Shown here in pieces: positions 5,774 to 46,762 of a stretch of 64,000 bases of DNA; within the stretch, counting starts at the first letter, position 1, and each line of letters starts with the position of its first letter. A model generated the notes under the pieces. That model made no database searches. It was not told the origin of the DNA and saw only the letters and a list, made by a program, of their open reading frames with translations. The stretch spans positions 4,774,001 to 4,838,000 of the forward strand of contig NZ_CP137734.1 in assembly GCF_033406955.1 (NCBI RefSeq), in the 5' to 3' direction. Made by a program: the position numbers and the translations under genes. The DNA is from Streptomyces violaceoruber. Its GTDB lineage: Bacteria > Actinomycetota > Actinomycetes > Streptomycetales > Streptomycetaceae.

Positions 5774-6099
5774 GGGACTCCCAGAGGCAGAGCTTCCATC
5801 ACGTGCAGTACGGAACCATTCACCCGTCGTAGCGAAGGTGGGGTACCGGAATGCGTCTGAGGAGAATAACGCTTCGTGCAGGCACTGCTACGCCCAGTTG
5901 CTCAAATCATCGATTACGTCGCTTCTGTGCCCGATTGACGCTCGATCAGATGCGCCAGAATGATCGCTTGGTGACCGGAACGGTTCGGATTCCTGGTGAC
6001 TACAGAGCGTGTTGTGGCCGATGTGAGTTCAGGGGACTGGAGAGCCCGTCCCGGGGGTACGTCATCCCGATTGGGTCAACGACTGGGTCAACGGCCGGG
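5774..6099. other. 326-base region upstream of bldN; no gene seen
   Basis: This is the bldN leader and promoter region, since the HAD gene on the far side ends at 6100 on the same strand. It is less GC-rich than its surroundings around 5850-5960, as expected for a promoter region. No convincing coding frame or RNA gene is visible. Its right end holds three direct repeats, listed separately. Confidence 0.6.
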
Positions 6100-6105
6100 T
6101 CAACG
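6073..6105. repeat. Three direct repeats GGGTCAACG, period 12
   Basis: GGGTCAACG occurs at 6073-6081, 6085-6093 and 6097-6105, running into the stop codon of the HAD gene. On the minus strand each copy reads CGTTGACCC, containing the BldN -10 hexamer CGTTGA. No CGTAAC lies 16-17 bases upstream of any copy, so this may be only a small tandem duplication. Confidence 0.7.
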
Positions 6106-7050
6106 GCGGCGGCGGTGCAGCGCGATGGCCGCCACGGTGCCGCCCGCCACCGCCCCGACGCCCGCGGCCGCGGGGATGCCGACCTTCGCGGCCTTGCGCC
6201 CGGTGCGGTAGTCGCGCAGTCGCCACTCCAGCTCGCGGGCGTGCTTGCGCAGCTTGGAGTCCGGGTTGATGGCGTACGGATGTCCGACCAGCGACAGCAT
6301 CGGGATGTCGTTGTGCGAGTCGCTGTAGGCGGCGCAGCGGGACAGGTCCAGGGCCTCGGCCGTGGCCAGCGCCCGGACCGCCTCGGCCTTCGCGGGGCCG
6401 TGCAGCGGCTCGCCGACCAGCTTGCCCGTGTAGACGCCGCCGATCGACTCGGCCACCGTGCCGAGCGCGCCGGTCAGGCCGAGGCGGCGGGCGATCACCT
6501 GGGCGATCTCCACCGGGGCGGCCGTCACCAGCCAGACCTTCTGTCCGGCGTCCAGGTGGGCCTGCGCGAGGGCGCGGGTGCCGGGCCAGATCCGCTCGGC
6601 CATGTACTCGTCGTAGATCTCCTCGCCGATCGACTTCAGTTCGGAGACGCGGTGGCCCTTGACGATGGAGAGCGCGGAGTCGCGGGCGTCCTGCATGTGC
6701 TCCGGGTCCTCGAACCCGGCCAGCCGGAACCAGGCCTGCTGCCAGGCGAAGCGGGCGAGGTCGCGGGTCTCGAAGAACTTCCGCTTGTACAGGCCCCGGC
6801 CGAAGTGGAAGATCGCGGCGCCCTGCATGACGGTGTTGTCGAGGTCGAAGAACGCGGCCGCGCGGTCGTCGCCGTGGACCGGGAACTCCGGTTCGGCGAC
6901 TCCGGAGCCGGGGGTGGTTTCCTGGGAGGTCCCGGCGGTCTCGGCGGCTTCCGCGGACTTGCGGGCTGCCTCCGCCGAGGCCTCGCCTGCCAACACGCTC
7001 CGCGCCGTGGCGGAGCGCCTACGGGGAGTGAGCCATCGAAGAGCGGCCAT
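6100..7050 (-). CDS. HAD-superfamily hydrolase, subfamily IB (SerB-like)
   Basis: A 316-residue protein with the HAD motifs in order. The nucleophile motif is FFDLDNTVMQG (DxDxT form), WLVTAAP carries motif II, a Lys lies in KAEAVRALA, and AYSDSHNDIPML holds the motif IV acidic residues. This matches the HAD-IB group that includes phosphoserine phosphatase-like and CicA-like enzymes. A disordered Ala/Glu-rich stretch precedes the domain. The C-terminus ends in a hydrophobic helix and RRRR, suggesting membrane association. The ATG at 7050 is chosen; an in-frame ATG at 7062 is possible. It is divergent from the glutaredoxin-like gene. The substrate is unknown. Confidence 0.88.
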   Translation of the reverse strand: MAALRWLTPRRRSATARSVLAGEASAEAARKSAEAAETAGTSQETTPGSGVAEPEFPVHGDDRAAAFFDLDNTVMQGAAIFHFGRGLYKRKFFETRDLARFAWQQAWFRLAGFEDPEHMQDARDSALSIVKGHRVSELKSIGEEIYDEYMAERIWPGTRALAQAHLDAGQKVWLVTAAPVEIAQVIARRLGLTGALGTVAESIGGVYTGKLVGEPLHGPAKAEAVRALATAEALDLSRCAAYSDSHNDIPMLSLVGHPYAINPDSKLRKHARELEWRLRDYRTGRKAAKVGIPAAAGVGAVAGGTVAAIALHRRRR

Positions 7051-8551: not shown

Positions 8552-10293
8552 GCCTCCTCGTCGTCGGGCTGAGCCACCGCAGCGCCCCCGTCAGCGTGCT
8601 CGAGCGGGCCTCGCTGAACGCGGACGCGCAGCTCAAGCTGCTCCAGGACACGGTCGCCGCCGAACCGGCCGCCGAGGCCGCGGTCCTGGCCACCTGCAAC
8701 CGCATCGAGCTGTACGCCGACGTGGACAAGTTCCACGCCGGTGTCGCCGAGCTGTCCACGCTGCTCGCCCAGCACAGCGGCGTCGGCCTGGAGGAGCTGA
8801 CCCCCTACCTCTACGTGCACTACGAGGACCGGGCCGTCCACCACCTGTTCTCGGTGGCCTGCGGGCTGGACTCGATGGTGGTCGGCGAGGGGCAGATCCT
8901 CGGCCAGATAAAGGACTCCCTGGCCCGCGCCCAGGACCTGCACACCGCCGGACGGCTCCTGAACGACCTGTTCCAGCAGGCGCTGCGGGTCGGCAAGCGC
9001 GCCCACTCCGAGACCGGCATCGACCGGGCCGGGCAGTCCCTGGTCACCTTCGGCCTGGAGCAGCTGTCCGCGGGGGCCGACGTCGAGCAGTGGGCGCGGG
9101 GCAAGAAGGCGCTGGTCATCGGCGCCGGTTCGATGTCCTCGCTGGCCGCCGCCACGCTGGCGCGGGCCGGGGTCGCCGAGATCGTGGTCGCCAACCGCAC
9201 CTTCGAGCGCGCCGAGCGCCTCGCGCTCCTGCTCGAAGAGCAATATGGACAACGTCTTTCCGAGGGCGACGACACGGACGTGCTGGCCCGCGCGGTACCG
9301 ATGGACGCGGTGCCGGGCGAGCTGACACGTGCCGACGTGGCCGTTTCCTGTACGGGCGCGACCGGTCTCGTCCTCACGGCCGACTCCGTGGCGGCGGCGG
9401 TGGAGGGCCGTACCGGCGCACCCGCCGTCGAGGACACCGCCGTACGGGAGACCGCCGTACGGGAAGCCGGCGAAACGCCACTGCCGGGTGCCGGGAGCGC
9501 CACCGACGAGAACTGCCCCCTGGACCTCTCCTCCGTGTCCTCCGTCCCCTCCGGCTTCTCCGTCATGGGCGAGGCCGCCGTGGCCGGCATGGACGCGGCG
9601 ACGCTGGAGCAGCACGGGGCGTGGGCCGCGGGCGGTACGGCGGTGGACCGGACGCGCGAGGCGGGCCGGAGCGGTCCGGAGGCGGACGCCGAGCTGATCG
9701 GCGCGCTCGCCGCGACGGCGACCCGCGTCGGCCGCATCCCCGAGCGCCGCCGCCCGGAGCCCGTCGCCGAGGCGCCCCGCCCGCAGCCCGTGCTCTTCCT
9801 GCTCGACCTCGCGATGCCGCGGGACGTCGACGCCGCCGTGCACCGGCTGGCCGGGGTCCGCCTGGTGGACATCGAGTCGCTCGCCGACGCCTCGGCCGAC
9901 GCACCGATGGCCGCCGACGTCGACATGGTCCGCCGGATCGTCGCCGACGAGGTCGCGGCCTTCGGCGCCGCCCAGCGCGCCGCGCACATCACGCCCACCG
10001 TGGTCGCGCTGCGCAGCATGGCCGCGGACGTCGTGGCCGGCGAGATCGCCCGCCTGGAAGGGCGGCTGCCGGGGCTCGACGACAAGCACCGGGCCGAGAT
10101 CACCCAGACCGTCAAGCGTGTGGTCGACAAGCTGCTGCACGCGCCGACGGTGCGGGTCAAGCAGCTCGCCGCCGAACCCGGCGGTGCCGGGTACGCGGAC
10201 GCGCTGCGCACCCTGTTCGACCTCGACCAGGAGACGGTGGCCTCCGTCTCCCGCGCCGAGAACAGCACTGAGAAGAACCGAGGGCCGGCATGA
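8548..10293 (+). CDS. hemA: Glutamyl-tRNA reductase HemA
   Basis: A 581-residue enzyme that reduces glutamyl-tRNA(Glu) to glutamate-1-semialdehyde, the first committed step of C5-pathway tetrapyrrole synthesis. The catalytic Cys50 lies in LATCNRIELY. GEGQILGQIK and the NADPH-binding GAGSMSSLAAATLARAG are present, as is the C-terminal dimerisation helix. A poorly conserved insertion of roughly 150 residues after residue ~230 (Ala/Thr/Glu-rich, encoded about 9.25-9.77 kb) makes it much longer than the ~420 residues of E. coli HemA; such insertions are usual in Streptomyces. Its start overlaps the rex stop (ATGA), implying translational coupling and Rex control. Confidence 0.96.
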   Translation: MSLLVVGLSHRSAPVSVLERASLNADAQLKLLQDTVAAEPAAEAAVLATCNRIELYADVDKFHAGVAELSTLLAQHSGVGLEELTPYLYVHYEDRAVHHLFSVACGLDSMVVGEGQILGQIKDSLARAQDLHTAGRLLNDLFQQALRVGKRAHSETGIDRAGQSLVTFGLEQLSAGADVEQWARGKKALVIGAGSMSSLAAATLARAGVAEIVVANRTFERAERLALLLEEQYGQRLSEGDDTDVLARAVPMDAVPGELTRADVAVSCTGATGLVLTADSVAAAVEGRTGAPAVEDTAVRETAVREAGETPLPGAGSATDENCPLDLSSVSSVPSGFSVMGEAAVAGMDAATLEQHGAWAAGGTAVDRTREAGRSGPEADAELIGALAATATRVGRIPERRRPEPVAEAPRPQPVLFLLDLAMPRDVDAAVHRLAGVRLVDIESLADASADAPMAADVDMVRRIVADEVAAFGAAQRAAHITPTVVALRSMAADVVAGEIARLEGRLPGLDDKHRAEITQTVKRVVDKLLHAPTVRVKQLAAEPGGAGYADALRTLFDLDQETVASVSRAENSTEKNRGPA

Positions 10294-11249
10294 CTGAGAA
10301 GGCACTGAGGCTGGGGACCAGGCGGAGCAAGCTCGCCATGGCCCAGTCCGGGCAGGTGGCGGACGCCGTGAGCCAGGTGACCGGTCGGCCCGTTGAGCTG
10401 GTCGAGATCACCACGTACGGGGACACGTCGCGGGAGCACCTGGCGCAGATCGGCGGCACGGGGGTGTTCGTCGCCGCGCTGCGCGACGCGCTGCTGCGGG
10501 GTGAGGTGGACTTCGCGGTTCACTCGCTCAAGGACCTCCCCACCGCGCAGCACGAGGGCCTGGTCGTGGCCGCGATCCCGGAGCGCGAGGACCCGCGGGA
10601 CGTGGTCGTCGCCCGGGACGCGCGCAAGCTGACCGACCTCCCGCGCGGGGCGCGCGTCGGCACGGGCGCGCCGCGCCGCATGGCGCAGCTGAACGCGTAC
10701 GCCCGCACCCACGGGATGGAGATCGAGACCGTCCCGATCCGGGGCAACGTGGACACGCGCATCGGATACGTCCGCAGCGGTGAGCTGGACGCGGTCGTGC
10801 TGGCCGCCGCCGGGCTGAACCGGGTGGGGCGCATCGACGAGGTGACCGACTTCCTGTCGGTCGACACGGTTTTGCCGGCCCCCGGCCAGGGGGCACTGGC
10901 GGTCGAGTGCGCGGCGGACAACGCCTCGCTGATCGCCGCGCTCGCCGAGCTCGACGACCCGTTCACGCGGGCCGCCGTAACGGCCGAGCGGTCACTGCTC
11001 GCCGCCCTGGAGGCCGGCTGCAGCGCACCCGTGGGGGCGCTGGCCGACCTTCTGGCCGACGGGCAGACTGTCAAGGAAATGCGCCTGCGCGGCGTCGTCG
11101 GCACGACCGACGGCTCGACGCTGGTGCAGCTGTCCACCACCGGTCCCGTGCCCGAGACGCACGAGGCGGCGCTGGCGCTCGGCGGCGAACTCGCCGCCGA
11201 GATGCTCGCCCAGGGCGCGGCCGGTCTGATGGGGGAGCGAGCACAGTGA
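10290..11249 (+). CDS. hemC: Porphobilinogen deaminase (hydroxymethylbilane synthase) HemC
   Basis: A 319-residue cytosolic enzyme that joins four porphobilinogen units into hydroxymethylbilane. Family motifs are RLGTRRSKLAMAQ-type start, VHSLKDLPT with the catalytic Asp region, and PAPGQGALAVE. Cys244 in EAGCSAPVGALA carries the dipyrromethane cofactor. Length is normal for the family. The ATG overlaps the hemA stop by four bases (ATGA) and the GTG of hemD overlaps its own stop in the same way, so the four genes are translated as one tightly coupled operon. Confidence 0.97.
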   Translation: MTEKALRLGTRRSKLAMAQSGQVADAVSQVTGRPVELVEITTYGDTSREHLAQIGGTGVFVAALRDALLRGEVDFAVHSLKDLPTAQHEGLVVAAIPEREDPRDVVVARDARKLTDLPRGARVGTGAPRRMAQLNAYARTHGMEIETVPIRGNVDTRIGYVRSGELDAVVLAAAGLNRVGRIDEVTDFLSVDTVLPAPGQGALAVECAADNASLIAALAELDDPFTRAAVTAERSLLAALEAGCSAPVGALADLLADGQTVKEMRLRGVVGTTDGSTLVQLSTTGPVPETHEAALALGGELAAEMLAQGAAGLMGERAQ

Positions 11250-36795: not shown

Positions 36796-38142
36796 ATGAG
36801 CAGACCCCAGCCGGGACAGTCGCCCGACCGGTTACCCGAGAAGCCGTTGCCCCGGTGGTTTCCGGCGGCCCTCCCCGTGTCCGTACTGGTGGCCGTCCTG
36901 TGGGGACCGGTGTACGCGGCGGTGCTGTGCGGCGTGGCAGCCGTGGCCGTCGCGTACGCCACGACCAGGAAGCCCGAGCTGTGGCACCTGGCGGCCGGGA
37001 CCGGCCTGTGCGCGGCGGGTGTGCTGGCGCAGGCCTTCGCCTACTACCTGATCCTGCGGGACGGTTCGCTCGGCCCGCACGGGAGCGCGGCCGTCCTCTT
37101 CCTCCTCGGCCTCCAGTTCTTCCTGCACGGCAGGAAGGTGCGGCGCGCGGCGCAGCTCACCTTGTCGGCGCTGCGGCGGCACCGCGAGGAGAACGGGCTG
37201 CTCCGGGCCGCCGAGCCGCTCGGCGAGCGGCGGCCGGGGGCGCGCCGGGTCCCGTTCGCGATGACGAGCGTCTTCGGCGCGGTCGTCTCCGGGCTCGGCT
37301 CGCTGTTCCTCTGCTTCACCCTTCTCGCCCTGCGGGACCTGCTGACGACCGGCGACAACCCGTGGTGGGCGTCCCTGGTCGTCGCCGCCCTGTGTGCGCA
37401 GGCGGTCCTCTTCATCGGCCTGGGCAACACGATCCTGCGCACCGGAGTGCAGTACTACGACACGGTCGTCTCCTCCCCGGACGACCTCGCGGGCCGCCAG
37501 TACGTCCTCTACCTGCGCTCCTTCCGCGACGACCACCGGCTCTCGCGCCCCCACCGCGTCCCCCTGGCGGGCGCCTGGCCGGCCGCCGCCGTCAGCCTCG
37601 GCCAGGGCGAGGAGGAGCGCATCGCCGACGCCCTGTCCTGGGCCGGCCCCCTCGTCGGGGTGGGGGCGCCCGGGGAGCGCGTGCCCCGGGCCGGTGCCCG
37701 GCGGATGTACCTGCCGCCGGACGACTGGCAGAGGCCGGTGAGCACCATGATGCGCGGCGCCGCGCTCGTCGTGATCGTGCTGGGGAAGGGACCGGGGACG
37801 CTCTGGGAGATCCGCGAGGCGATGCGGATCCTGCCTCCCGAGCGGCTGCTGCTGCTCGTGCCGATGAAGGAGAAGGCGTACGACGAGTTCCGGGAGCTGG
37901 CGGGCGACCTGGCGCCCGGCGTGCTGCCCGCGTACCGGCGCAGCCGTGCTTTGTCGTCCCGGGTCCGGGGAATCATCCACTTCGAGCCGGACTGGACGGC
38001 GCGGTTCGTCGCCCTGCGCCGGCCCCCGCCGCTCGAAGACCCGCTCGTGGGCTCTCTGGACCGTGCCATGTGGCCCGCCATGGTGCGCCTGACCGAACTC
38101 GAACTCGAACGGCGGGCGGACGGGAGGCGGGGCGAGGCATGA
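36796..38142 (+). CDS. Multi-pass membrane protein with C-terminal TIR-like domain
   Basis: A 448-residue protein. The N-terminal half has about six hydrophobic segments (residues ~20-55, 58-95, 150-175 and 195-215). The C-terminal ~220 residues form an alpha/beta domain: YVLYLRSFRDDHR, EEERIADALSWAGPLVGVG, RMYLPPDDWQRPVSTMM, LVVIVLGKGPGTLWEIREAM, and RLLLLVPMKEKAYDEF. Strand order and the conserved Glu after LGKGPGTLW recall TIR-fold domains of bacterial conflict systems. This is a resemblance by eye, not a firm family call. It overlaps the next gene by four bases (ATGA) and heads a three-gene operon. Confidence 0.65.
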   Translation: MSRPQPGQSPDRLPEKPLPRWFPAALPVSVLVAVLWGPVYAAVLCGVAAVAVAYATTRKPELWHLAAGTGLCAAGVLAQAFAYYLILRDGSLGPHGSAAVLFLLGLQFFLHGRKVRRAAQLTLSALRRHREENGLLRAAEPLGERRPGARRVPFAMTSVFGAVVSGLGSLFLCFTLLALRDLLTTGDNPWWASLVVAALCAQAVLFIGLGNTILRTGVQYYDTVVSSPDDLAGRQYVLYLRSFRDDHRLSRPHRVPLAGAWPAAAVSLGQGEEERIADALSWAGPLVGVGAPGERVPRAGARRMYLPPDDWQRPVSTMMRGAALVVIVLGKGPGTLWEIREAMRILPPERLLLLVPMKEKAYDEFRELAGDLAPGVLPAYRRSRALSSRVRGIIHFEPDWTARFVALRRPPPLEDPLVGSLDRAMWPAMVRLTELELERRADGRRGEA

Positions 38143-38651
38143 GCGACATGGGGGACGCGCTGTGGAACACGGAGGTCGGCCCGGCCGAGTACTCGGTGGC
38201 CGACGACCGCTACCGGCAGGCGGTGCTCGACCAGTACAAGCTCTGCGTGGAGATGGCCGACCGGGTCAGTGCCCGGCGGAATCTGACCAACACGTTCTTC
38301 CTGTCGCTCAACAGCGCGGTGGTCGCCGTGGTGGCCGCGGTGTCGGGCGGCGCACTGGCCGACGCGTCCGTCCCGCTGCTGCTGGCCGGGCTGGTCATCC
38401 TGCTGGTCCAGTGCGCCGCCTGGTACGTCATGGTGCGGTCGTACCGACAGCTCAACCGCGCCAAGTACGCGGTGATCGGCGCCTTCGAGGAGAGGCTGCC
38501 GGCGTTCGCGTACAGCAGGGGGGAGTGGGGCGCGCTGGGCGAGGGCCGGGACTGGCGCCGGTATCTGCCCCTGACCTACGTCGAGCAGTGGGTCCCGGTC
38601 GTCTTCGCCGGCTCCTACGTGACGGGCTTCTTCGCCCTCGTCACCCGGTGA
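38139..38651 (+). CDS. RipA-family small membrane protein
   Basis: A 170-residue protein with a conserved soluble start (EYSVADDRYRQAVLDQYKL, CVEMADRVSARRNLTNTFFL), two membrane helices (SLNSAVVAVVAAVSGGALA; LLLAGLVILLVQCAAWYVM) and a third near the C-terminus (WVPVVFAGSYVTGFFALVT). This pattern matches the RipA/SLATT-like integral membrane proteins that accompany nucleotide-signalling conflict genes; oligomeric pore formation is proposed for the wider group. It is translationally coupled to the TIR-like membrane protein. Confidence 0.7.
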   Translation: MSDMGDALWNTEVGPAEYSVADDRYRQAVLDQYKLCVEMADRVSARRNLTNTFFLSLNSAVVAVVAAVSGGALADASVPLLLAGLVILLVQCAAWYVMVRSYRQLNRAKYAVIGAFEERLPAFAYSRGEWGALGEGRDWRRYLPLTYVEQWVPVVFAGSYVTGFFALVTR

Positions 38652-38710
38652 GCCACGGGCCGCGATAGGATCCGGGGCCTGCCACCAGGCCATCGACCGA
38701 GGGGGAGAGC

Positions 38711-39220
38711 GTGACGGCCCTCGCGGTGACCGGGCACATGGACCTGACGGAGGAGAGCGTCCCCGCGGTCCGCGCCGCCCTGGACGGACTGCTGGCCCGG
38801 TACCGGGACTCGGGCCCGGGAAAGACGCTGGTCGGGATCTCCTGCATCGCCAGGGGGGCCGACTCGCTGTTCGCCGAAGCCGTACTGGCCGTCGGCGGTC
38901 GCCTGGTCGTCGTCGTCCCGTCGCGGGACTACCGCCGCAGCACGGTCGAGCCCGACGACGCCCCCCTCTTCGACCGCCTCGCCGCGGCCGCCGACGAGGT
39001 CGTCGTACTGCCCCGCGAGAGGGCCGACCGGCAGGCGTACGAGGCCGCCAACGCCCTGCTCCTCGAACGTGCCGACCGGCTGGTGGCCGTGTGGAACGGC
39101 GAACCGCCCAGCGGCCGGGGCGGCGGCACCGCCGACCTGGTGCTCGCGGCCCGGGCGGCGGGGATCCCCGTCGACGTCGTGTGGCCCGCGGGGGCCGCAC
39201 GCCGGGCGGACTCCCGGTAG
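38711..39220 (+). CDS. SLOG-like nucleotide-binding protein
   Basis: A 169-residue Rossmann-like protein: ALAVTGHMDLTEESVPAVRA, LVGISCIARGADSLFAEAVL, LVVVVPSRDYRRSTVE, and RADRLVAVWNGEPPSGRGGG resemble the SLOG/YspA-type fold (DprA-LOG superfamily), in which GxAxGAD- and GT-rich loops bind nucleotides. The GTG start has GGGGGAG upstream. SLOG proteins in conflict operons are thought to sense or make nucleotide-derived signals. It is the third gene of the operon with the TIR-like and RipA-like proteins. Confidence 0.75.
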   Translation: MTALAVTGHMDLTEESVPAVRAALDGLLARYRDSGPGKTLVGISCIARGADSLFAEAVLAVGGRLVVVVPSRDYRRSTVEPDDAPLFDRLAAAADEVVVLPRERADRQAYEAANALLLERADRLVAVWNGEPPSGRGGGTADLVLAARAAGIPVDVVWPAGAARRADSR

Positions 39221-39250
39221 GAAGGGCCGCCGACCGGTGCGGACCGGCGC

Positions 39251-39303
39251 CGGAAGCGGAACCGGCGCCGGAACCGGAAGCGGAACCGGAAGCGGTTCGG
39301 AAG
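39251..39303. repeat. Hexanucleotide repeat of CGGAAG/CGGAAC
   Basis: CGGAA occurs at 39251, 39257, 39269, 39275, 39281, 39287 and 39298, mostly with a period of six. It lies between the convergent SLOG and BTAD-Macro genes. Confidence 0.85.
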
Positions 39304-39359
39304 CGGTGCGCCGCTGGTTCCGGAAGCGGGGTCGCTGATGCCGTAAGGGCATGTCGACG

Positions 39360-40793
39360 TCACCGGCGGCCGTACGCCCCACCGCTGTCGCCGGCGCCGG
39401 CACCGGTGTCCTGACTCCCGGTGCCGGCGCCGACGTCGGCGCCGGCACCGGGGAGCCGCGTGGTGCGCAGATAGGTGCCGAGCACCGACAGGTCGGTCCG
39501 CTCCAGGTCGGCCGGGCGGATCACGACGCGCAGCTCCGGGGCGGTCGCCGGGTCACGGCGGCAGTGGTCGGCGAAGCTCTCCACGATCATGAGCAGCAGC
39601 CGGGTGCGGTCCAGCTCCACGATCCGGGCCAGCCCGGAGCCGATCAGGGGGATCGCGAGCGGCCGGTACATCCCGTACCGGGCGACGGCCGGCCACAGGG
39701 TGTCCAGGCTCGCCCGCAGGTCGGCCGGTCCGGAGCGGGCGACGAGGTCGTTGCCGAGCCGGGAGTAGGCCACCGCGAAGACCCGGCGGCCGTCGACCGT
39801 CAGCGGGACGGTGGTGCCCAGCGGGTAGCGCACCCGCCGGCCGCGCGGCTTGTCCTGGGGCCGCTCGGTGCGCACCGGCCGGAACGCCCTCAGCCCGGCC
39901 TGGATCCGGTCGTCCAGCAGCTTGCGCTCCCCGCCGAACAGCCGCTCCACCAGCTGGCCCTGGACGCTGTCCCGGCTGATCACCAGGTCCTGCTCAGTGG
40001 CGGTGTCGAAGGTGTCGGTGAACCCGACGACGAGATTGGCGTCGTCCTGGTCGAACAGGTCGCCGCGCACCACCACGAGGTCACCGGCGCCGGGGAACGG
40101 CTGCCGCAGCAGCTCCCGTCCGTGCCGCTCGCGCAGCCGGGCCCGCAGGGCGCCGAGCAGCTCGGCGACGTCCTGGTCGTCCGGCCGCTCCCGGGCCATC
40201 CGTTCCGCGACCGGCAGCGCGAGGTCGTGGCGGCCCAGGTCCATCCGGCTGCGGATCAGCTGGCGGCGGGCCGTCTCGTACAGCGCGGTGAGCCGGCGCG
40301 CCAGCGGCCGGGCGAAGTCCTCGTCGCCCGCCTCCGCCAGCGGACGGCCGCGCACCAGGGCCAGCGCCGCGGCCAGCCGGTCGGCGGCCGACGCGGGCGC
40401 CGCGAGCAGCGCGGAGTCGACCAGGTCGGTGAACTCCGCGCAGTCCAGTTCGCCGGGCGCGAGCACCAGCCGGTACGCCGTCTCGGGCGCCGGGCCGGCC
40501 AGCAGTTGCTCGGTGCGCAGCACCCGGGCGCCGTCACCGCGCTGCGCGGGGTCGAGGGCGCGGCGCAGTTCGAGGACGCGCTTTTGCACTTCGTTGCGGT
40601 GGCGCTGCGCCGCGTGCGGCTGCTCGCCGTCGAGTGCCCACACGTCCCGGTGCAGCCGGCGTACCGGGACGGGCTCGCCGTCCGCCGCCACCAGCCGGAC
40701 CAGCAGCCGTGTCGTCAACGGGGTCAACCGGGCGGGTACGCCGTCGACTTCGAGCCTGGCCGGACCCAGGACGCTCACACGGATACGCGCCAT
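39360..40793 (-). CDS. SARP/BTAD transcriptional regulator fused to a ThsA-type Macro domain
   Basis: A 477-residue protein. Residues 1-95 are the OmpR-like winged helix of SARP regulators (RVSVLGPARLEVDGVPARLT; RRLHRDVWALDG). Residues ~110-230 are the helical BTAD domain (DCAEFTDLVDSALLA; LYETARRQLIRSRMDLGRHD). Residues ~240-430 resemble the Macro domain of Thoeris ThsA proteins: VVRGDLFDQDDANLVVGFTD, TFDT, ISRDSVQGQLVERLFGG, AVAYSRLGNDLVARSG, and IPLIGSGLARI. That domain binds NAD-derived signals in type II Thoeris. The ATG at 40793 begins the SARP domain exactly. It probably reads a signal made by the TIR protein encoded upstream (inference). Confidence 0.85.
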   Translation of the reverse strand: MARIRVSVLGPARLEVDGVPARLTPLTTRLLVRLVAADGEPVPVRRLHRDVWALDGEQPHAAQRHRNEVQKRVLELRRALDPAQRGDGARVLRTEQLLAGPAPETAYRLVLAPGELDCAEFTDLVDSALLAAPASAADRLAAALALVRGRPLAEAGDEDFARPLARRLTALYETARRQLIRSRMDLGRHDLALPVAERMARERPDDQDVAELLGALRARLRERHGRELLRQPFPGAGDLVVVRGDLFDQDDANLVVGFTDTFDTATEQDLVISRDSVQGQLVERLFGGERKLLDDRIQAGLRAFRPVRTERPQDKPRGRRVRYPLGTTVPLTVDGRRVFAVAYSRLGNDLVARSGPADLRASLDTLWPAVARYGMYRPLAIPLIGSGLARIVELDRTRLLLMIVESFADHCRRDPATAPELRVVIRPADLERTDLSVLGTYLRTTRLPGAGADVGAGTGSQDTGAGAGDSGGAYGRR

Positions 40794-40907
40794 ACAAGTG
40801 GTCTCCACTCGCTTCACACTCTCCCGACCGGTGGTCGCGGGAGAGGTGTCGGCAGCGTATCAATTGTCCGTTTGGGGGAGTTGTGGTTTCGGTCGGTTCG
40901 TGCGGGG

Positions 40908-40957
40908 CCGGCCCCCGGGGCACGCACCGCGGTGACGGGACGTGCCCCGGGGGCCGG
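40908..40957 (-). terminator. Hairpin after the TIR operon
   Basis: CCGGCCCCCGGGGCACG (40908-40924) pairs perfectly with 40941-40957: a 17-bp stem with a 16-base loop. It lies 64 bases beyond the TIR gene stop and upstream of the BTAD-Macro gene, separating the two transcripts. Confidence 0.85.
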
Positions 40958-41020
40958 TTGCGCCGGTCCCCCGAGCGGCGCCGGATCCGCCGGACGACTG
41001 CGCCGGCGGTGGCAGGAGGC

Positions 41021-41770
41021 CTACGGCCGGCGGTGGTAGGCCGACAGATGGCGGAAGGGGTAGGTCTGGCGCCAGTCGGAGCCGGTGTCGTTGACCGTGC
41101 AGCCGGCCAGCTTCAGCCGCTCCACGACCTTGCCGAGCGCCGTGTCGGAGCCGTCGAAGCGGATGACGTTGCGGCCTGCGATGTCGGCGATCGGCCGTAC
41201 CCCGCCGACCTCGACGATCAGCGTGCGCTCCGGGTAGGCCATCAGCACCATGCCCAGCTCGATCAGGACGTTGGGGCGCGGCTGGCACACCGGCCGGGTC
41301 TCGTGGTCGGGTTCGTTGTGGCCGCGCAGCTCGGGGTGGAGGGTGACGACGTCGTCCGGGGTGAGCAGGACCAGCGCCGCCTGGGCCTGGGAGGGGGCCC
41401 CGGCGACCACGTCGCCGAGGAAGGGGGAGGCCTGGCCGGTCGCCCGGACCAGGTCCTCCCACTCCTTGGGCCGCAGGTCGAGCCGGCGCAGCAGCTCGTA
41501 CATCTCGCGCCGCACCTGGTCGTCGCGGCCGTGCACGACGAAGACGCTGCGGGCCCGCTCGGCGTCCCCCGGCACCGGGGCGGCCGGGCGCCGCCATCCG
41601 TCGGCGTACGGCTGTGCGGGCGGGGCGGACGGCGCGGGCGGCGCGGCGTGGACGGGGGAGTTGTCGCCGAAGGTCTGGGTGGTGTCGGTGTTGCCGGCGC
41701 TCTGGTTGCCCCCGAAGTTGTTGGTGCTGCCCTGGCCGAAGCTGTTGCCGTGGAACTGCTGCCCGCTCAT
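41021..41770 (-). CDS. TIR-like (PF10137-type) protein with N-terminal Asn/Gly-rich signalling motif
   Basis: A 249-residue protein. Residues 15-38 form an Asn/Gly/Thr-rich motif (NNFGGNQSAGNT, TTQTFGDNS) nearly identical to the end of the protein encoded upstream. A Pro/Ala linker follows. From ~75 it is the predicted nucleotide-binding TIR-like domain: VFVVHGRDDQVRREMYELLR, ALVLLTPDDVV, and PRPNVLIELGMVLMAYPERT with the conserved Glu expected for NAD cleavage. Related domains are effectors in CBASS, Pycsar and Thoeris-like systems. The ATG overlaps the preceding stop by four bases. It is the last gene of a three-gene operon. Confidence 0.85.
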   Translation of the reverse strand: MSGQQFHGNSFGQGSTNNFGGNQSAGNTDTTQTFGDNSPVHAAPPAPSAPPAQPYADGWRRPAAPVPGDAERARSVFVVHGRDDQVRREMYELLRRLDLRPKEWEDLVRATGQASPFLGDVVAGAPSQAQAALVLLTPDDVVTLHPELRGHNEPDHETRPVCQPRPNVLIELGMVLMAYPERTLIVEVGGVRPIADIAGRNVIRFDGSDTALGKVVERLKLAGCTVNDTGSDWRQTYPFRHLSAYHRRP

Positions 41771-41883
41771 GCCTGCCGTGCCTCCCTGGTGACGCCGGAG
41801 TTGTTGCCGAAGGTCTGGGTGGTGTTGGTGTTGCCGACGCTCTGGTTGCCGCCGAAGTTGTTGGTGCTGTTGGCGCCGAAGTT
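41655..41883. repeat. Two ~87-base direct repeats encoding the shared signalling motif
   Basis: 41655-41741 (inside the TIR gene) and 41797-41883 (end of the two-TM gene) are direct repeats offset by 142 bases, with mostly silent or single-residue differences. They encode the Asn/Gly-rich motif in both proteins: 21 of 24 residues are identical. Confidence 0.9.
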
Positions 41884-43377
41884 CTGCTGGAGGATGTTGG
41901 TCTGGTTCGCCTCGTGCTCCCGGGTGTCGACGTCGTGGTCGCGCAGGAAGTCGCCCACGATCTGGAGCAGATGGCGCTCGATGATCTGGATGTACTTGAT
42001 CGCGTCCGACTCCTGGAAGAAGTGGTGGAAGTCGTGGTCGGGCGCCAGCTCGCGGACGCTGGTGCGGGCGCCGCAGTCCACCGCGGTCAGGGCGTAGCGG
42101 CCGAGCCGGAACTCGCTGGTGTCGGCGGGCTCGCCCACCAGCTTGCGGACGGTGTCGGTGGAGAAGCGGCTGGGCAGCCGTTCGCGCAGCGGGTTGGTGA
42201 TCAGCCGCAGCAGCTCGCCGGGCGCGCTGCGGGTCACGTCCCAGGCGATGCGGCACATGAGCCTGCCGTCGATCGCGGCCGGCAGCCGGTCTGCGAGGTG
42301 GAAGCTCTCCGGCAGGGGACCGAGCACGTAGGTGTAGAACTCGGTGTGCAGGGTGCTGCCCTTGATGTCGAAGCCGATGAACACCGAGGTGACCAGCTCC
42401 TGCTGCCAGGCCCCGATGCGGACGCACAGGTACTCGCGGCGGGCGTCGTAGTCCTCCCGCCAGTGTGCGGCGGTGTGGTCGGGGTGGCCGGGGTCGGGCG
42501 TGTCCAGGAGCACGGCGACGGAGTCGCTGCCCTCGGCGGTGCGCACCGCCTTGGTGAACCGGCGCCGGTCGACGGAGAGCAGTTCGACGCGGTGGCTCGG
42601 CGCGGGCTTGTCGCGCAGTTCCGCCAGCAGCTCCTCGCAGACCCGGGTGGTGATGTCGTCGACCGTGAACGGGATGATCGGCTTGCGTTCCGTCCGGCCG
42701 CCCCCGTCCGTGCCGTTCGTGCCGTTCGTGCCGTTCGTGCCGTCCGCCGGTCCGTGCTGGGCGGGGACGTGCCCGTTGAGCAGGTTCTGGCCGAGCGCGC
42801 CGGCCCGGGACTTCGGGGCGCCGAGCAGCAGTTCCGCGTTGGCCCACCGTTTGACCGAGTGGCCGGCGCCGATGAAGGGCTTGTAGCCGCCGTAGTACAC
42901 GGTGTCCGAGGCCTGCTCCCGGTTGATCTTGCCGACGAGTTCCGGGGTGAGGCGCGAGGTGACCGGGTGCGAGCCGTCGAACCCGGTGCGGTCGTCCGCC
43001 GGGGGTGCGAGGTGCTCGGCGAGGGTCTGCAGGATGGCGAGCCTGCGCAGGAACATCGTGGCCCAGGCGAGCCAGAACGCGAACAGGGCGGCCGTCCAGC
43101 CGCCCAGTACGCCCGCGGCCATGAGCAGCGCGATGACGACCGCGCCCGCGGCGAGGGCGATCAGCTGGTTGCGGCGCAGGTTGTGGGCGGCCAGGGCGTG
43201 CGCCAGGACGGGCGCGGCGTCGTAGCCGTAGGAGGGGGCCACGACCCGGTAGCGGTGGGTGAGCAGCTCCCGGATGACGGCCTTGCGGTAGTGGGGGTCG
43301 AGGTAGGTGCCCGCGCACAGCAGGCGGGTGGCGTTGCTCGTGGTGTCCGGGGGCGGCGGGGCGGCGTGGGTGGTCAT
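41767..43377 (-). CDS. Two-TM putative sensor with C-terminal Asn/Gly-rich signalling motif
   Basis: A 536-residue protein of no family I can name. The start TRLLCAGTYLDPHYRKAVIR is a recurring Streptomyces pattern. Two membrane helices follow (residues 71-90 and 93-110). A (NGT)n stretch lies near residue 215 and a large soluble domain spans ~230-490 (IIPFTVDDITTRVCEELLAE; SVFIGFDIKGSTLHTEFYTY; RYALTAVDCGARTSVREL). The last 33 residues hold STNNFGGNQSVGNT and TTQTFGNNS, the motif also found at the N-terminus of the TIR protein. It overlaps that gene by four bases and is six bases from the gene before it. Confidence 0.75.
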   Translation of the reverse strand: MTTHAAPPPPDTTSNATRLLCAGTYLDPHYRKAVIRELLTHRYRVVAPSYGYDAAPVLAHALAAHNLRRNQLIALAAGAVVIALLMAAGVLGGWTAALFAFWLAWATMFLRRLAILQTLAEHLAPPADDRTGFDGSHPVTSRLTPELVGKINREQASDTVYYGGYKPFIGAGHSVKRWANAELLLGAPKSRAGALGQNLLNGHVPAQHGPADGTNGTNGTNGTDGGGRTERKPIIPFTVDDITTRVCEELLAELRDKPAPSHRVELLSVDRRRFTKAVRTAEGSDSVAVLLDTPDPGHPDHTAAHWREDYDARREYLCVRIGAWQQELVTSVFIGFDIKGSTLHTEFYTYVLGPLPESFHLADRLPAAIDGRLMCRIAWDVTRSAPGELLRLITNPLRERLPSRFSTDTVRKLVGEPADTSEFRLGRYALTAVDCGARTSVRELAPDHDFHHFFQESDAIKYIQIIERHLLQIVGDFLRDHDVDTREHEANQTNILQQNFGANSTNNFGGNQSVGNTNTTQTFGNNSGVTREARQA

Positions 43378-43383
43378 GGCTGT

Positions 43384-44115
43384 TCAGTTCCCTTCCCGCA
43401 TGTCGGCCGAGGTGATGACGCCGCCGCTGACGGTGTAGGTGCCCTCGAACGTCGTCTGCGTGCCGTCGGTCTCCCAGGCCACGACCGTGACCGAGACGTC
43501 GTCGCCGGACGTGCCGGTCACGGTGACGTCGTCCCGCTGCGTCGTCCCGAAGCCGGCGACGAAGGAGTCGTAGTCCTGGTCGAGGTTCTTGCCGCCCAGC
43601 TCCCACGCGGCCGCGAAGTCGCGGTTGTTGATGGCGTCGAAGTACGCCGTCACGGTCGCCTCCGGCCCGCTGCCGTCGGCGGTGGTGTCCTCGGTGGCCG
43701 TGTCGTCGGTCGCGGTGTCGGTCGTGGTGTCGTCCGTGGGGGTCTCGTCCGCGGTGCCGTCGCCGTACGGGTCGTTGTCGTACGTGCCGTCGCCGTAAGT
43801 GCCGTCCTCGTACGTGCCGTTGCCGTACGTGCCGTCGGGGTCGGTGCCGTCGCCGGAGGTGCCGTCGTCGGTCGTGCCGTCGTCGGTCGTGCCGGACCCC
43901 CAGTCCGGCAGCGCTCCGCTGCCGTAGAGCCCGTCGGTGGCGGGTGCTCCGTCGTCCGGGCCGGTCGTGGCGAGCACGACGGCCAGCACGACTATGAGGA
44001 CGAAGGGGACCGCGATCACGGTCAGGGCCTGGTTGCGTACGGGGCCGGGCGTGAGTGCGAGCCCCGGTGCGGGGTAGGAACCCCTGGCGCCGGGCGGGAC
44101 GCGTGTACTGCTCAT
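43384..44115 (-). CDS. One-TM protein with Asp/Gly/Thr-Tyr repeat stalk and NTF2-like outer domain
   Basis: A 243-residue protein. A short cytosolic segment is followed by one membrane helix (residues ~31-50, LTVIAVPFVLIVVLAVVLAT). Next is a ~90-residue low-complexity stalk of DGTY-, DDGT- and TDDT-type repeats. The C-terminal ~100-residue domain (EATVTAYFDAINNRDFAAAW; LGGKNLDQDYDSFVAGFG) looks like the lumazine-binding/NTF2-like fold. It is the first gene of the operon that ends with the TIR protein, so it may be the outer face of the sensor complex (inference). Confidence 0.78.
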   Translation of the reverse strand: MSSTRVPPGARGSYPAPGLALTPGPVRNQALTVIAVPFVLIVVLAVVLATTGPDDGAPATDGLYGSGALPDWGSGTTDDGTTDDGTSGDGTDPDGTYGNGTYEDGTYGDGTYDNDPYGDGTADETPTDDTTTDTATDDTATEDTTADGSGPEATVTAYFDAINNRDFAAAWELGGKNLDQDYDSFVAGFGTTQRDDVTVTGTSGDDVSVTVVAWETDGTQTTFEGTYTVSGGVITSADMREGN

Positions 44116-44728
44116 CTGTCACCTCATTGCCGCCGGTATCCGGCCGGGCGGATACGGCACGCGCCCCGAGTGGGCCGATGTGCCTTGTGCATCGACCGAT
44201 CCGACCAGTGGCGGCGCTTCCGGAACCAGATTTCCGGGGTTCCGATGCGCTTCCGATCGGCTTCCGGTATGGCCGGCCCGTTGATCGTCCCGCTGCTCGT
44301 CCCGCCGATCGCCCCGGGGCGGTTCACCGGCACCCAAGCCCTGGTGAACGCTTCCGGAAACCGGCAATGCGGATAGGTGGCACCGTCACGCACCATGGGG
44401 CGCACGGGGAGCACTGCGCGGAGGGGGCCGGACGATGACGACGAAGACGACGCACAGTCCGTTCGTCCGGCCCCTCCACCGGCTCCGCCCCCGTCCCGAC
44501 GATCCCGGCCGCGCCCCGCGCGCCGCCGGCGCCGCGGCACACGGCCGCCGCGCCGTCTGAGACCCGCCTTCCGCCGCTGCCGGGGCCCGGCGCGGGCGCG
44601 GTCCGTTCGAAGACTCGCCCCCGGAACCACGCCTGTCCGCACGGGCGTCACCCCACCAACATCGGCGGCGGCCGGCCGCGCTCGTCCGGCCGCCGCGACA
44701 GCCGCCTCATGCCGTAAGGACGTATGCC
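44116..44728. other. 613-base intergenic region between the TIR operon and the flotillin gene; no gene seen
   Basis: This is the divergent promoter region for the TIR operon (leftward) and the flotillin/ATPase pair (rightward). It has no frame with a conserved protein; the open frames here are low-complexity Arg/Pro. It contains repeated TTCCG elements (listed separately) and TAAGGA at 44715-44720, the ribosome-binding site for the flotillin. Confidence 0.65.
44218..44267. repeat. TTCCG direct repeats in an 11-base register
   Basis: TTCCG lies at 44218, 44240, 44251 and 44262, that is at 22, 11 and 11 base steps, with another copy out of register at 44232 and a further GCTTCCGGAA at 44350. 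Direct repeats at 11- or 22-base spacing are how SARP/BTAD regulators usually bind. The BTAD-Macro regulator is encoded nearby. It lies about 100-150 bases upstream of the TIR operon. Confidence 0.45.
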
Positions 44729-46762
44729 ATGGAAGTCATCGGTGTCCTCGCCCTCGTCTGTCTGCTCCTCGTCGTCCTTGTGCTGTTCGGCGTCTCGCGG
44801 CTCTTCCGCAAGGTGGAGCAGGGCAAGGCGCTGATCGTCTCGAAGATGCGCAAGGTGGACGTGACCTTCACGGGTCAGGTGGTGCTGCCCGTGCTGCACA
44901 AGGCCGAGGTGATGGACATCTCGGTGAAGACGATCGAGATCACGCGGGCCGGCAAGGAGGGGCTGATCTGCCGGGACAACATCCGCGCGGACATCCGCAT
45001 CTCGTTCTTCGTCAAGGTCAACAAGACCGCCGAGGACGTCGTCAAGGTCGCCCAGGCGGTCGGCACGGCCCGCGCCAGCGACCGGGACACGTTGCAGGAG
45101 CTGTTCCACGCGAAGTTCTCCGAGGCGCTGAAGACCGTCGGCAAGCAGCTGGACTTCACCGACCTCTACACCAAGCGCGAGGAGCTGCGGTACCGGATCA
45201 TCGAGGTCATCGGCGTCGACCTCAGCGGGTACCACCTCGAGGACGCGGCGATCGACTACCTGGAGCAGACGCCGCTGACCCAGCTCGACCCGGCCAACGT
45301 CCTGGACGCCCAGGGCATCCGGAAGATCACCGAGCTGACGGCCGTGGAGCACGTGCGCACCAATGAGGCGCGGCGCACCGAGGAGAAGGAGATCACCCGG
45401 CAGAACGTCGACGCGCGCGAGGCCGTTCTGGAGCTGGAGCGCCGGCAGGCGGACGCCGAGATCAAGCAGAAGCGCGAGATCGACACCACCCGGGCCCGCG
45501 AGGAGGCCGAGACGGCACGGGTGGTGGAGGAGGAGCGGCTGCGCGCGCAGGCGGCGTTCCTGCGCACGGAGGAGCAGCTCGGCGTGCAGCGCGAGAACCA
45601 GGCCCGTGAGGTCGCGGTCGCCGCGAAGAACCGCGAGCGGGTCATCGCCGTGGAGAACGAGCGCATCGAGAAGGACCGCATGCTGGAGGCCATCGGCCGC
45701 GAGCGGGAGACCGAGCTGACCCGGATCGCCGCCGAGAAGGAGGTCGAGGCCGAGCGGCGGGACATCGCCGAGGTCATCCGCGAGCGCGTCGCCGTGGACC
45801 GCACGGTCGCCGAGCAGGAGGAGTCCATCAAGAAGCTGCGCGCCGTGGAGGAGGCGGAGCGGGACCGGCAGACGGTGATCATCGCCGCCGAGGCCCAGGC
45901 GCAGGAGCGGCTGGTCAAGGACATCAAGGCCGCCGAGGCCGCGGAGGCGGCGGCCACCCACCGCGCCGCCGAGGAACTCACCATGGCCGAGGCCCGGTTG
46001 AAGAGCGCCGACCTGGAGGCGCAGGCCAAGCTGCGGATGGCCGAGGGCATCCAGGCCGAGGCGGCCGCGGCGGGCCTCGCGGCGGTCCAGGTCCGTGACA
46101 AGGAGGCCGAGGTCATCGAGAAGGCCGGCCGCGCCGAGGCGGAGGCGACCGGGGCCCGGATGCGCGCCGAGGCCGAGGGCGCGCGGGCCAAGGCCCTCGC
46201 CGAGGCGGAGGCCATCGGCAGCAGGCTGAAGGCGGAGGCCGCCGGGCTCACCGAGAAGGCCGCGGCGATGGCCGCCCTGGACGACGCCTCGCGCGGCCAC
46301 GAGGAGTACCGGCTGCGCCTGGAGGCGGAGAAGGACATCCGGCTGGCCGGGCTCGACGTGCAGCGGCAGGTCGCCGAGGCACAGGCCACGGTGCTCGCCA
46401 CCGGCCTGGAGAACGCCGACATCGACATCGTCGGCGGCGACACGGTCTTCTTCGACCGCCTGATGTCCTCGGTCGCGCTCGGCAAGGGCGTCGACGGGTT
46501 CGTCAAGCACTCCGAGACCGCGCAGGCCCTCGCGGGGCCCTGGCTGGACGGCTCATCGAGCTTCACCGACGACCTGACCCGCGTGCTCGGCTCGTTCTCC
46601 ACGGCCGACGTGCAGAACCTGACGGTCTCGGCGCTGCTGATGAAGCTGATGAAGTCGGGCGGCCCGGACGCCGGGCAGGTGCAGCGCCTCCTGGACCGGG
46701 CGGGCGAACTGGGCCTCGCCGACACCCCGCTCACCGCCCTGAACGGCACGGCCAGGGTCTGA
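44729..46762 (+). CDS. Flotillin-like SPFH-domain protein
   Basis: A 677-residue membrane-associated scaffold. A hydrophobic N-terminus (EVIGVLALVCLLLVVLVLFG) is followed by the SPFH/band-7 domain (ALIVSKMRKVDVTFTGQVVL; DNIRADIRISFFVKV; KTVGKQLDFTDLYTKREELR). Residues ~215-540 are an unbroken heptad-rich, Ala/Glu/Arg coiled coil. The end is a short flotillin-type oligomerisation tail. Flotillins organise membrane microdomains. TAAGGA precedes the ATG by eight bases. It is probably co-transcribed with the giant ATPase 85 bases downstream. Confidence 0.92.
   Translation: MEVIGVLALVCLLLVVLVLFGVSRLFRKVEQGKALIVSKMRKVDVTFTGQVVLPVLHKAEVMDISVKTIEITRAGKEGLICRDNIRADIRISFFVKVNKTAEDVVKVAQAVGTARASDRDTLQELFHAKFSEALKTVGKQLDFTDLYTKREELRYRIIEVIGVDLSGYHLEDAAIDYLEQTPLTQLDPANVLDAQGIRKITELTAVEHVRTNEARRTEEKEITRQNVDAREAVLELERRQADAEIKQKREIDTTRAREEAETARVVEEERLRAQAAFLRTEEQLGVQRENQAREVAVAAKNRERVIAVENERIEKDRMLEAIGRERETELTRIAAEKEVEAERRDIAEVIRERVAVDRTVAEQEESIKKLRAVEEAERDRQTVIIAAEAQAQERLVKDIKAAEAAEAAATHRAAEELTMAEARLKSADLEAQAKLRMAEGIQAEAAAAGLAAVQVRDKEAEVIEKAGRAEAEATGARMRAEAEGARAKALAEAEAIGSRLKAEAAGLTEKAAAMAALDDASRGHEEYRLRLEAEKDIRLAGLDVQRQVAEAQATVLATGLENADIDIVGGDTVFFDRLMSSVALGKGVDGFVKHSETAQALAGPWLDGSSSFTDDLTRVLGSFSTADVQNLTVSALLMKLMKSGGPDAGQVQRLLDRAGELGLADTPLTALNGTARV

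Follow-up and report, generated by a model that had tools for sequence, protein, structure and literature searches.

Closest described systems

To our knowledge, the readers of the bacterial TIR messengers described so far are killers, whether membrane effectors, NADases or caspase-like proteases. Gene activation has its own well-known architecture: SARP/AfsR activators and EmbR have a winged helix followed by a BTAD domain, in EmbR with an FHA domain as well, and BTAD proteins of known function are mostly activators. In Thoeris defence, ThsA proteins of one kind (EcThsA, 8v6q and 8v6r; PcThsA, 8v6s; ThsA, 8r66) have membrane helices and a Macro domain (PF20016), and are linked to TIR genes. 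CRISPR immunity offers Csa3, in which, according to PMC8844856 and PMC8699464, a CARF domain that serves as receptor for cyclic oligoadenylate is joined to a winged helix. CATRA systems are recognized by the Pfam families CATRA-N/C, CATASP and CHAT. Neither BTAD nor AfsR is mentioned in two papers on the CATRA group (PMC8195603, PMC7159879), and the first describes neighbourhoods where fusions involving a macro domain occur together with a gene for an ECF sigma factor. In the open-licence literature no description was found of a SARP/BTAD-ThsA Macro regulator linked to TIR or Thoeris.

Such a regulator is encoded by Streptomyces violaceoruber, in a stretch of 64,000 nucleotides (the window). 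It is a known sensor plus a known activator, and what appears to be new is their union with a conserved TIR partner. It has in common with Thoeris ThsA the PF20016 Macro domain and the linkage to a TIR gene, but its N-terminal part is a winged helix and BTAD rather than membrane helices, and its TIR neighbour is of the CAP12 type with no PADLOC ThsB match. With SARP/AfsR activators and EmbR it shares the winged helix followed by BTAD, but its C-terminal sensor is a Macro domain and its neighbours are TIR-type immune genes. It would share with Csa3 the joining of an immune nucleotide-messenger receptor to a DNA-binding domain, albeit with unrelated domains and a TIR product rather than cyclic oligoadenylate; on this analogy, Csa3 appears to be its nearest functional analogue. 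Certain variant loci hold the CATRA-TIR, CATASP and CHAT genes of CATRA systems, from which they differ by the addition of the Macro-type regulator. The domain anatomy, the conserved linkage, the two types of TIR module, the promoter box and the repeated absence of short ThsA described below are drawn from sequence and from a structural model. The features of the window locus are:

39360..40793, minus strand: SARP-Macro regulator, 477 amino acids (winged helix at about residues 1-100, BTAD 116-217, ThsA_Macro 240-426, low-confidence tail 447-477)
40794..41020, no strand: 227-bp gap between the TIR and regulator genes, where full-cassette relatives have a short ThsA-like Macro gene (~275 amino acids), divergent from the regulator and absent in the window
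40853..40900, minus strand: conserved element in the regulator's promoter, in which GAA-type repeats spaced by 9 bp are followed by TTGATACGCTG (-10-like)
41021..41770, minus strand: TIR protein, 249 amino acids, CAP12-PCTIR_TIR, with an N/G-rich N-terminal motif and NVLIELGM containing Glu171
41650-41770 (TIR N-terminus) and 41767-41890 (membrane protein C-terminus), minus strand: matched N/G-rich motifs that covary across 42 loci
41767..43377, minus strand: membrane protein of 536 amino acids, strongly hydrophobic around residue 73 and bearing a C-terminal N/G-rich motif
43384..44115, minus strand: protein of 243 (or 211) amino acids, the operon's first gene; its N-terminus is hydrophobic and its C-terminal part conserved, with a long D/T/G-rich linker between them

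An activator ending in a ThsA-type Macro domain

The gene had been placed at 39360-40793 by a sequence-only reading of the window, and these coordinates are exact; the strand, which that reading left unstated, is minus, the start codon being the ATG at 40793. It had also claimed that a SARP-type activator is fused here to a ThsA Macro domain bearing GDLFD, VVGFTDTFDT, SVQGQL, AYSRLGNDL and PLIGSGLARI. All five motifs are present in that order, and the PF20016 search that it proposed matches residues 240-426 with E 6.7e-51 (173 bits against a Pfam cut-off of 25) over positions 2-183 of the 183 in the profile, i.e. full-length. BTAD (PF03704) follows suit at residues 116-217 (32.6 bits, cut-off 22.1, E 1.2e-7), so the fusion is borne out. 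PADLOC ThsA1 aligns with the Macro part only (residues 239-444, E 3.8e-54, profile 80-277 of 281), and the membrane or SIR2 part of ThsA is absent, the N-terminal 236 amino acids being winged helix and BTAD.

Trans_reg_C at residues 20-84 stays below the Pfam cut-off (17.3 bits against 26.2, E 0.005), and it is despite this that an OmpR-type winged helix ahead of BTAD is recognized, through EmbR and AfsR. A profile built from 18 relatives aligned residues 6-204 with EmbR of M. tuberculosis (E 2.5e-7), and matched also three ThsA Macro sequences with E 6e-17 to 2.8e-16 and a fourth with 9.2e-7. The AlphaFold2 model (pLDDT 72.6, pTM 0.50) retrieved with Foldseek EcThsA (E 2.2e-11), EmbR (8.7e-9), the AfsR-RNA polymerase complexes 8k60 (5.1e-8) and 8hvr (2.7e-7), and many other Macro structures. 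Its VIA-align superposition on EcThsA (Z 19.4, rmsd 3.0 over 207 residues) is in keeping with the predicted Macro fold; since the aligned rows are mainly residues 223-445, the winged helix and BTAD stand on Pfam, the EmbR profile and Foldseek. In the winged-helix region R64, R66, N67, K71, R72, R77 and R78 never vary among 18 sequences, and the basic positions in this set presumably form the recognition helix.

In the genome, a single contig of 8,629,698 bases, PF20016 and PF10137 each match just once at E 0.001, and the two matches are the adjoining regulator and TIR genes.

The neighbouring operon

A TIR gene had been said to lie just upstream, and it does, on the same strand at 41770-41021. 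Its product matches PF10137 with 94.8 bits (cut-off 24.7, E 4.6e-27), and Glu171, which we take to be catalytic, is invariant in all 17 aligned sequences. PADLOC returned PDC-S35 and a weak TIR effector match for the window TIR, and no ThsB model; its profile had no match to solved structures at E 0.01. The regulator is not a ThsA and the window locus is not a Thoeris system, there being neither a TIR that matches a ThsB model nor a ThsA effector.

The stop codon of the 536-amino acid membrane protein overlaps the TIR start (ATGA). Pfam gave no match above cut-off for the window copy, with weak matches only among the 33 members scanned (best E 0.00049), and a PDB search with the fold model (pLDDT 62) gave nothing at E 0.001 or better. 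A protein of the 243-amino acid type accompanies the membrane protein in 30 of 47 clustered sequences; its conserved C-terminal part has no Pfam match above cut-off, and it is possibly an outward-facing sensor.

The N/G-rich motif at the membrane protein's C-terminus is the same as that at the TIR N-terminus of its own locus, and differs between loci. Across 42 loci (five more were dropped because they had no anchor) the mean similarity of own pairs is 107, against 54 for other pairings, and every one of the 42 own pairs exceeds the 99.9% point of a shuffled-tail null. None of 10,000 permutations reached the observed score sum, a significance inflated by relatedness, and the own partner came out on top for no more than 16 of the 42, near-identical relatives tying or beating it. 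Two adjacent products with matched motifs, the first carrying its copy C-terminally and the second N-terminally, are the layout of bacterial amyloid signalling (BASS) pairs as described in PMC12261475. The likeness is one of layout (adjacent matched motifs, covarying here between loci), and it differs from those pairs in that a membrane protein and a TIR are the partners and no NLR was seen. From their sequences the two tails look like an amyloid-signalling-type pair without an NLR.

Convergent with the regulator, on the plus strand at 36796-39220, are genes for a 448-amino acid protein, a 170-amino acid 8xMP protein (PF24838, E 3.9e-45) and a 169-amino acid protein that is SLOG/LSDAT-like by eye and without a Pfam or PADLOC match. 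Among the 47 clustered sequences (window plus L031-L076), the 8xMP and 169-amino acid clusters are confined to the window, L031 and L032.

One fusion, two TIR modules

PF20016 was found in 30 of 297 genomes of a family sample and in 9 of 394 of a class sample, and genome contigs supplied 17 loci. In a sample of the order, 47 of 391 genomes match the regulator alignment at E 1e-30 and 35 have the full-length regulator (three of these with one TGA inside the match). The 66 regulator rows reduce to 59 distinct loci once seven duplicates are dropped, and 50 of these have adequate flanks, with over 5 kb of sequence preceding the regulator start and over 4 kb following it. All were gathered through regulator or Macro similarity only; genes were called with a simple GC-position caller and features sought in six frames.

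A CAP12-type TIR (domain middle) lies within 4.5 kb of the regulator in 49 of the 50 well-flanked loci. The sole exception, L070, has its CATRA-TIR 5.5 kb off on the opposite strand. Of the nine loci with short flanks, five have a TIR in view (L035, L038, L043, L137, L140), and none is visible in L034, L045, L065 and L083. Near Macro genes without the regulator the CAP12 type was seen in 0 of 17 loci. Neighbours were checked in four of these unpartnered loci: L143 has a Pfam TIR_2 on both sides, L066 has one TIR_2, the Macro gene of L142 lies between a TIR_2 and a PADLOC TIR-TM, and L071 has one TIR-TM; from their gene content we read these four neighbourhoods as ordinary Thoeris-like.

Among the 50, the membrane-protein gene is present in 42, a divergent short ThsA-like gene in 38 and a CATRA-TIR in eight. 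In the first module the 243-amino acid type, membrane protein and TIR genes follow one another and are convergent with the short ThsA gene, which is divergent from that of the regulator. The label short ThsA comes from the two partner proteins scanned, those of L032 and L048, whose PADLOC ThsA1 matches are nearly full-length (E 3.5e-79 and 2.2e-78); hydropathy of the short proteins is moderate (25 of 34 above 1.6), with some maxima not N-terminal. In the second module (L067, L070, L073, L075, L084, L125, L129, L135) the regulator is found with CATRA-N/C-TIR, a CATASP-type small protein and a CHAT gene. Pfam identified CATRA-N/C-TIR in all three scanned (L067, L073, L075), our own profile doing so for the other five; CATASP was identified in the one scanned (L073) and CHAT in four of four (L067, L070, L084, L135). 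The regulator and TIR genes are joined by overlapping reading frames in L067, L073 and L084.

In a FastTree phylogeny with several long branches, 58 of the 59 fused Macro domains form one clade (support 98), as do all 43 partner short Macro domains (support 90), and since the fused domains are a single clade, it looks as if both TIR modules make use of one old fusion. L065 falls outside. It is a doubtful relative, counted in the 59 and not in the 50: ThsA_Macro ends a 445-amino acid protein (L065:1414-2751) whose divergent N-terminus has weak PADLOC PD-T4-6 and MkoA matches, perhaps another Macro fusion. As to mobile carriage, there was no phage record at E 1e-10, and four plasmid records at E 1e-20 matched the Macro part only.

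The Macro pocket

What might the Macro domain bind? Sixteen EcThsA positions, numbered as in PMC11204291, were compared in 59 regulators, 43 partner short ThsA-like proteins and 17 unpartnered ones. The window regulator keeps eight (D83, D100, I108, S109, S175, S217, G218, R221) and differs at eight (N96T, L113V, N114Q, R150K, I219L, T220A, H259R, K262D), a further point of difference from Thoeris ThsA. Four of the positions changed, N114, T220, H259 and K262, contact ADPR in EcThsA by the same source. With half of the 16 altered, the ligand could be something other than ADPR, imidazole-ADPR or His-ADPR themselves. All 59 regulators have D83, D100, I108, R221, N114Q and R150K. H259R occurs in 48 of 59 regulators, 43 of 43 partner short proteins and 5 of 17 unpartnered ones; the corresponding counts are 57, 43 and 6 for S175, and 58, 43 and 7 for G218. 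K262 is D or E in 52 of 59 regulators, 40 of 43 partners and 12 of 17 unpartnered proteins, and because this is common to all three groups the change is a general one; S217 and T220 vary in all three. We read the comparison as suggesting that the regulator and its partner short ThsA bind one common ligand, related to imidazole-ADPR or His-ADPR and perhaps not identical to either, though shared descent could account for part of the likeness.

These data bear also on the best-surviving of the alternatives, itself unlikely, in which the ligand is a metabolite of ordinary housekeeping, either ADP-ribose or some other product of NAD+ breakdown, so that the regulator would watch over NAD+ or stress physiology, and the TIR is a target or a co-traveller. 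That the EcThsA Macro domain binds plain ADPR (PMC11204291) is in its favour, as is the unlikeness to EcThsA at half of the positions compared. Retention of one TIR type in 49 of 50 well-flanked loci, across two otherwise unrelated modules, argues against it, and so do the several pocket positions at which the regulator is nearer its partner short ThsA than the unpartnered proteins.

Target promoters

The -10-like TTGATACGCTG stands 60-70 nt ahead of the regulator's ATG in the window. The pattern TTGnTAnnnT precedes the regulator in 30 of 38 module-1 loci examined and a relaxed form in six more, L062 included; in L137 and L138 it is absent in both strict and relaxed forms. A matrix from 31 sites, whose own training sites score 19-46, gave a next best site of no more than 10.4 in the 22 loci scanned; the single exception, in L058, scored 23.1 and lies some 3.5 kb past the operon. 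Direct repeats before the promoter are enriched at a spacing of 9 bp (z 4.7, with 2.9 at 14 and 2.1 at 8), by a shuffle that ignores relatedness; the 11-bp spacing of SARP direct repeats is not enriched (z 0.9).

The sequence-only reading had offered 44116-44728, ahead of the TIR operon, as the region to be bound. It is not supported as a regulator target: the -10-like pattern occurs in 0 of 38 loci within 1.5 kb before the membrane-protein gene and no comparable matrix site was found there in 22 loci, the conserved element being before the regulator's own gene instead. A search of the window's own genome with the box core, allowing up to three mismatches, gave no second match (reversed control 0). 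The only targets that the sequence supports are therefore the regulator's own gene and, in loci that have it, the divergent short ThsA, and without a second core in the genome or one before the TIR operon, targets beyond the regulator's own promoter are guesswork. A generic scan of 39200-45000 picked up not a single promoter; it gave two terminator-like sites, where 1.5 would be expected.

Absence of the short ThsA and its probable loss

Six distinct loci have regulator, TIR and membrane protein and are without short ThsA: the window, L128, L035, L038, L068 and L072. The window's genome has none elsewhere, its single PF20016 match being the regulator. On a maximum-likelihood tree of 59 regulators the state of short ThsA absent and regulator kept requires five changes, also when well-supported branches alone count, the window and L128 sharing one; because the partner proteins form one clade, the absences are taken as losses. 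The earlier picture, of a Macro domain fused here to an activator rather than a pore, needs correcting: in 38 of 50 loci the activator is found beside a divergent short ThsA-like protein and does not replace it, the window being one of the six loci without that protein.

Comparing the window with L128, dN/dS is 0.043 for Macro and 0.284 for winged helix/BTAD (few changes), and with L040 it is 0.173 and 0.059, respectively. With dN/dS below 1 in every comparison made, the regulator is, by this sequence measure, under purifying selection where short ThsA is gone. The L068 copy may be decaying, as its TIR frame (gene 10037-10598) is broken. The TIR frame is in two pieces in L031 (gene 6095-6837) as it is in L068, from sequencing error or decay.

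Might the regulator be a repressor, a safety catch that keeps the divergent short ThsA killer off until the signal releases it? That the two genes are divergent in 38 of 50 loci and have a conserved box between them would suit that. Against it stand the five changes just described, with the regulator still under purifying selection, the presence of short ThsA in 0 of the 8 CATRA loci, and the mostly activating role of BTAD proteins of known function; we consider it decidedly unlikely. Action by protein contact, in which the Macro domain co-oligomerizes with short ThsA or sponges up the signal and DNA binding is secondary, could appeal to the dimerization and ligand-induced oligomers of ThsA Macro domains (PMC11204291), but is very improbable given the many invariant basic winged-helix positions in 18 sequences and the regulator's retention where short ThsA is absent.

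A TIR signal probably read as transcription

The function that appears to fit best is the one that the sequence-only reading had surmised, a coupling of TIR signalling to gene expression, given one TIR type in 49 of 50 well-flanked loci and two different modules. On sequence, model and analogy, the Macro domain is probably the receptor for a TIR-made nucleotide, with the activator converting that signal to transcription, first at its own promoter. The signal would be an ADP-ribose or adenine dinucleotide made from NAD+ by the adjoining TIR. Infection or envelope stress would cause the membrane protein and TIR to assemble via their matched N/G-rich tails, as the covarying motifs suggest, and the clustered TIR, to judge from its family, would then produce the signal. 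Binding by the Macro domain would lead the regulator to pair or oligomerize, as ThsA does, whereupon winged helix and BTAD would bind the repeats at the regulator promoter and recruit RNA polymerase in the manner of AfsR. From the conserved box, the expected outcome is a raised level of the regulator and, where present, of the divergent short ThsA. Our guess is that there are likely to be targets elsewhere in lineages without short ThsA, that of the window included.

A larger picture, which we put forward tentatively and with some doubt, is that TIR immunity in filamentous bacteria includes an inducible arm akin to interferon, in which an amyloid-type relay from a membrane sensor feeds a messenger to a receptor-activator and so to a gene programme, and which has been kept where the suicide effector was discarded. 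Were a TIR-linked receptor indeed built into an activator that recruits RNA polymerase, bacterial TIR signalling would also alter gene expression, in parallel to Csa3 for CRISPR messengers and to interferon signalling in animals, and bacterial immune alarms may then turn genes on besides killing the cell. The module is compact, and the regulator, at 35 of 391 sampled genomes, is fairly widespread in the order.
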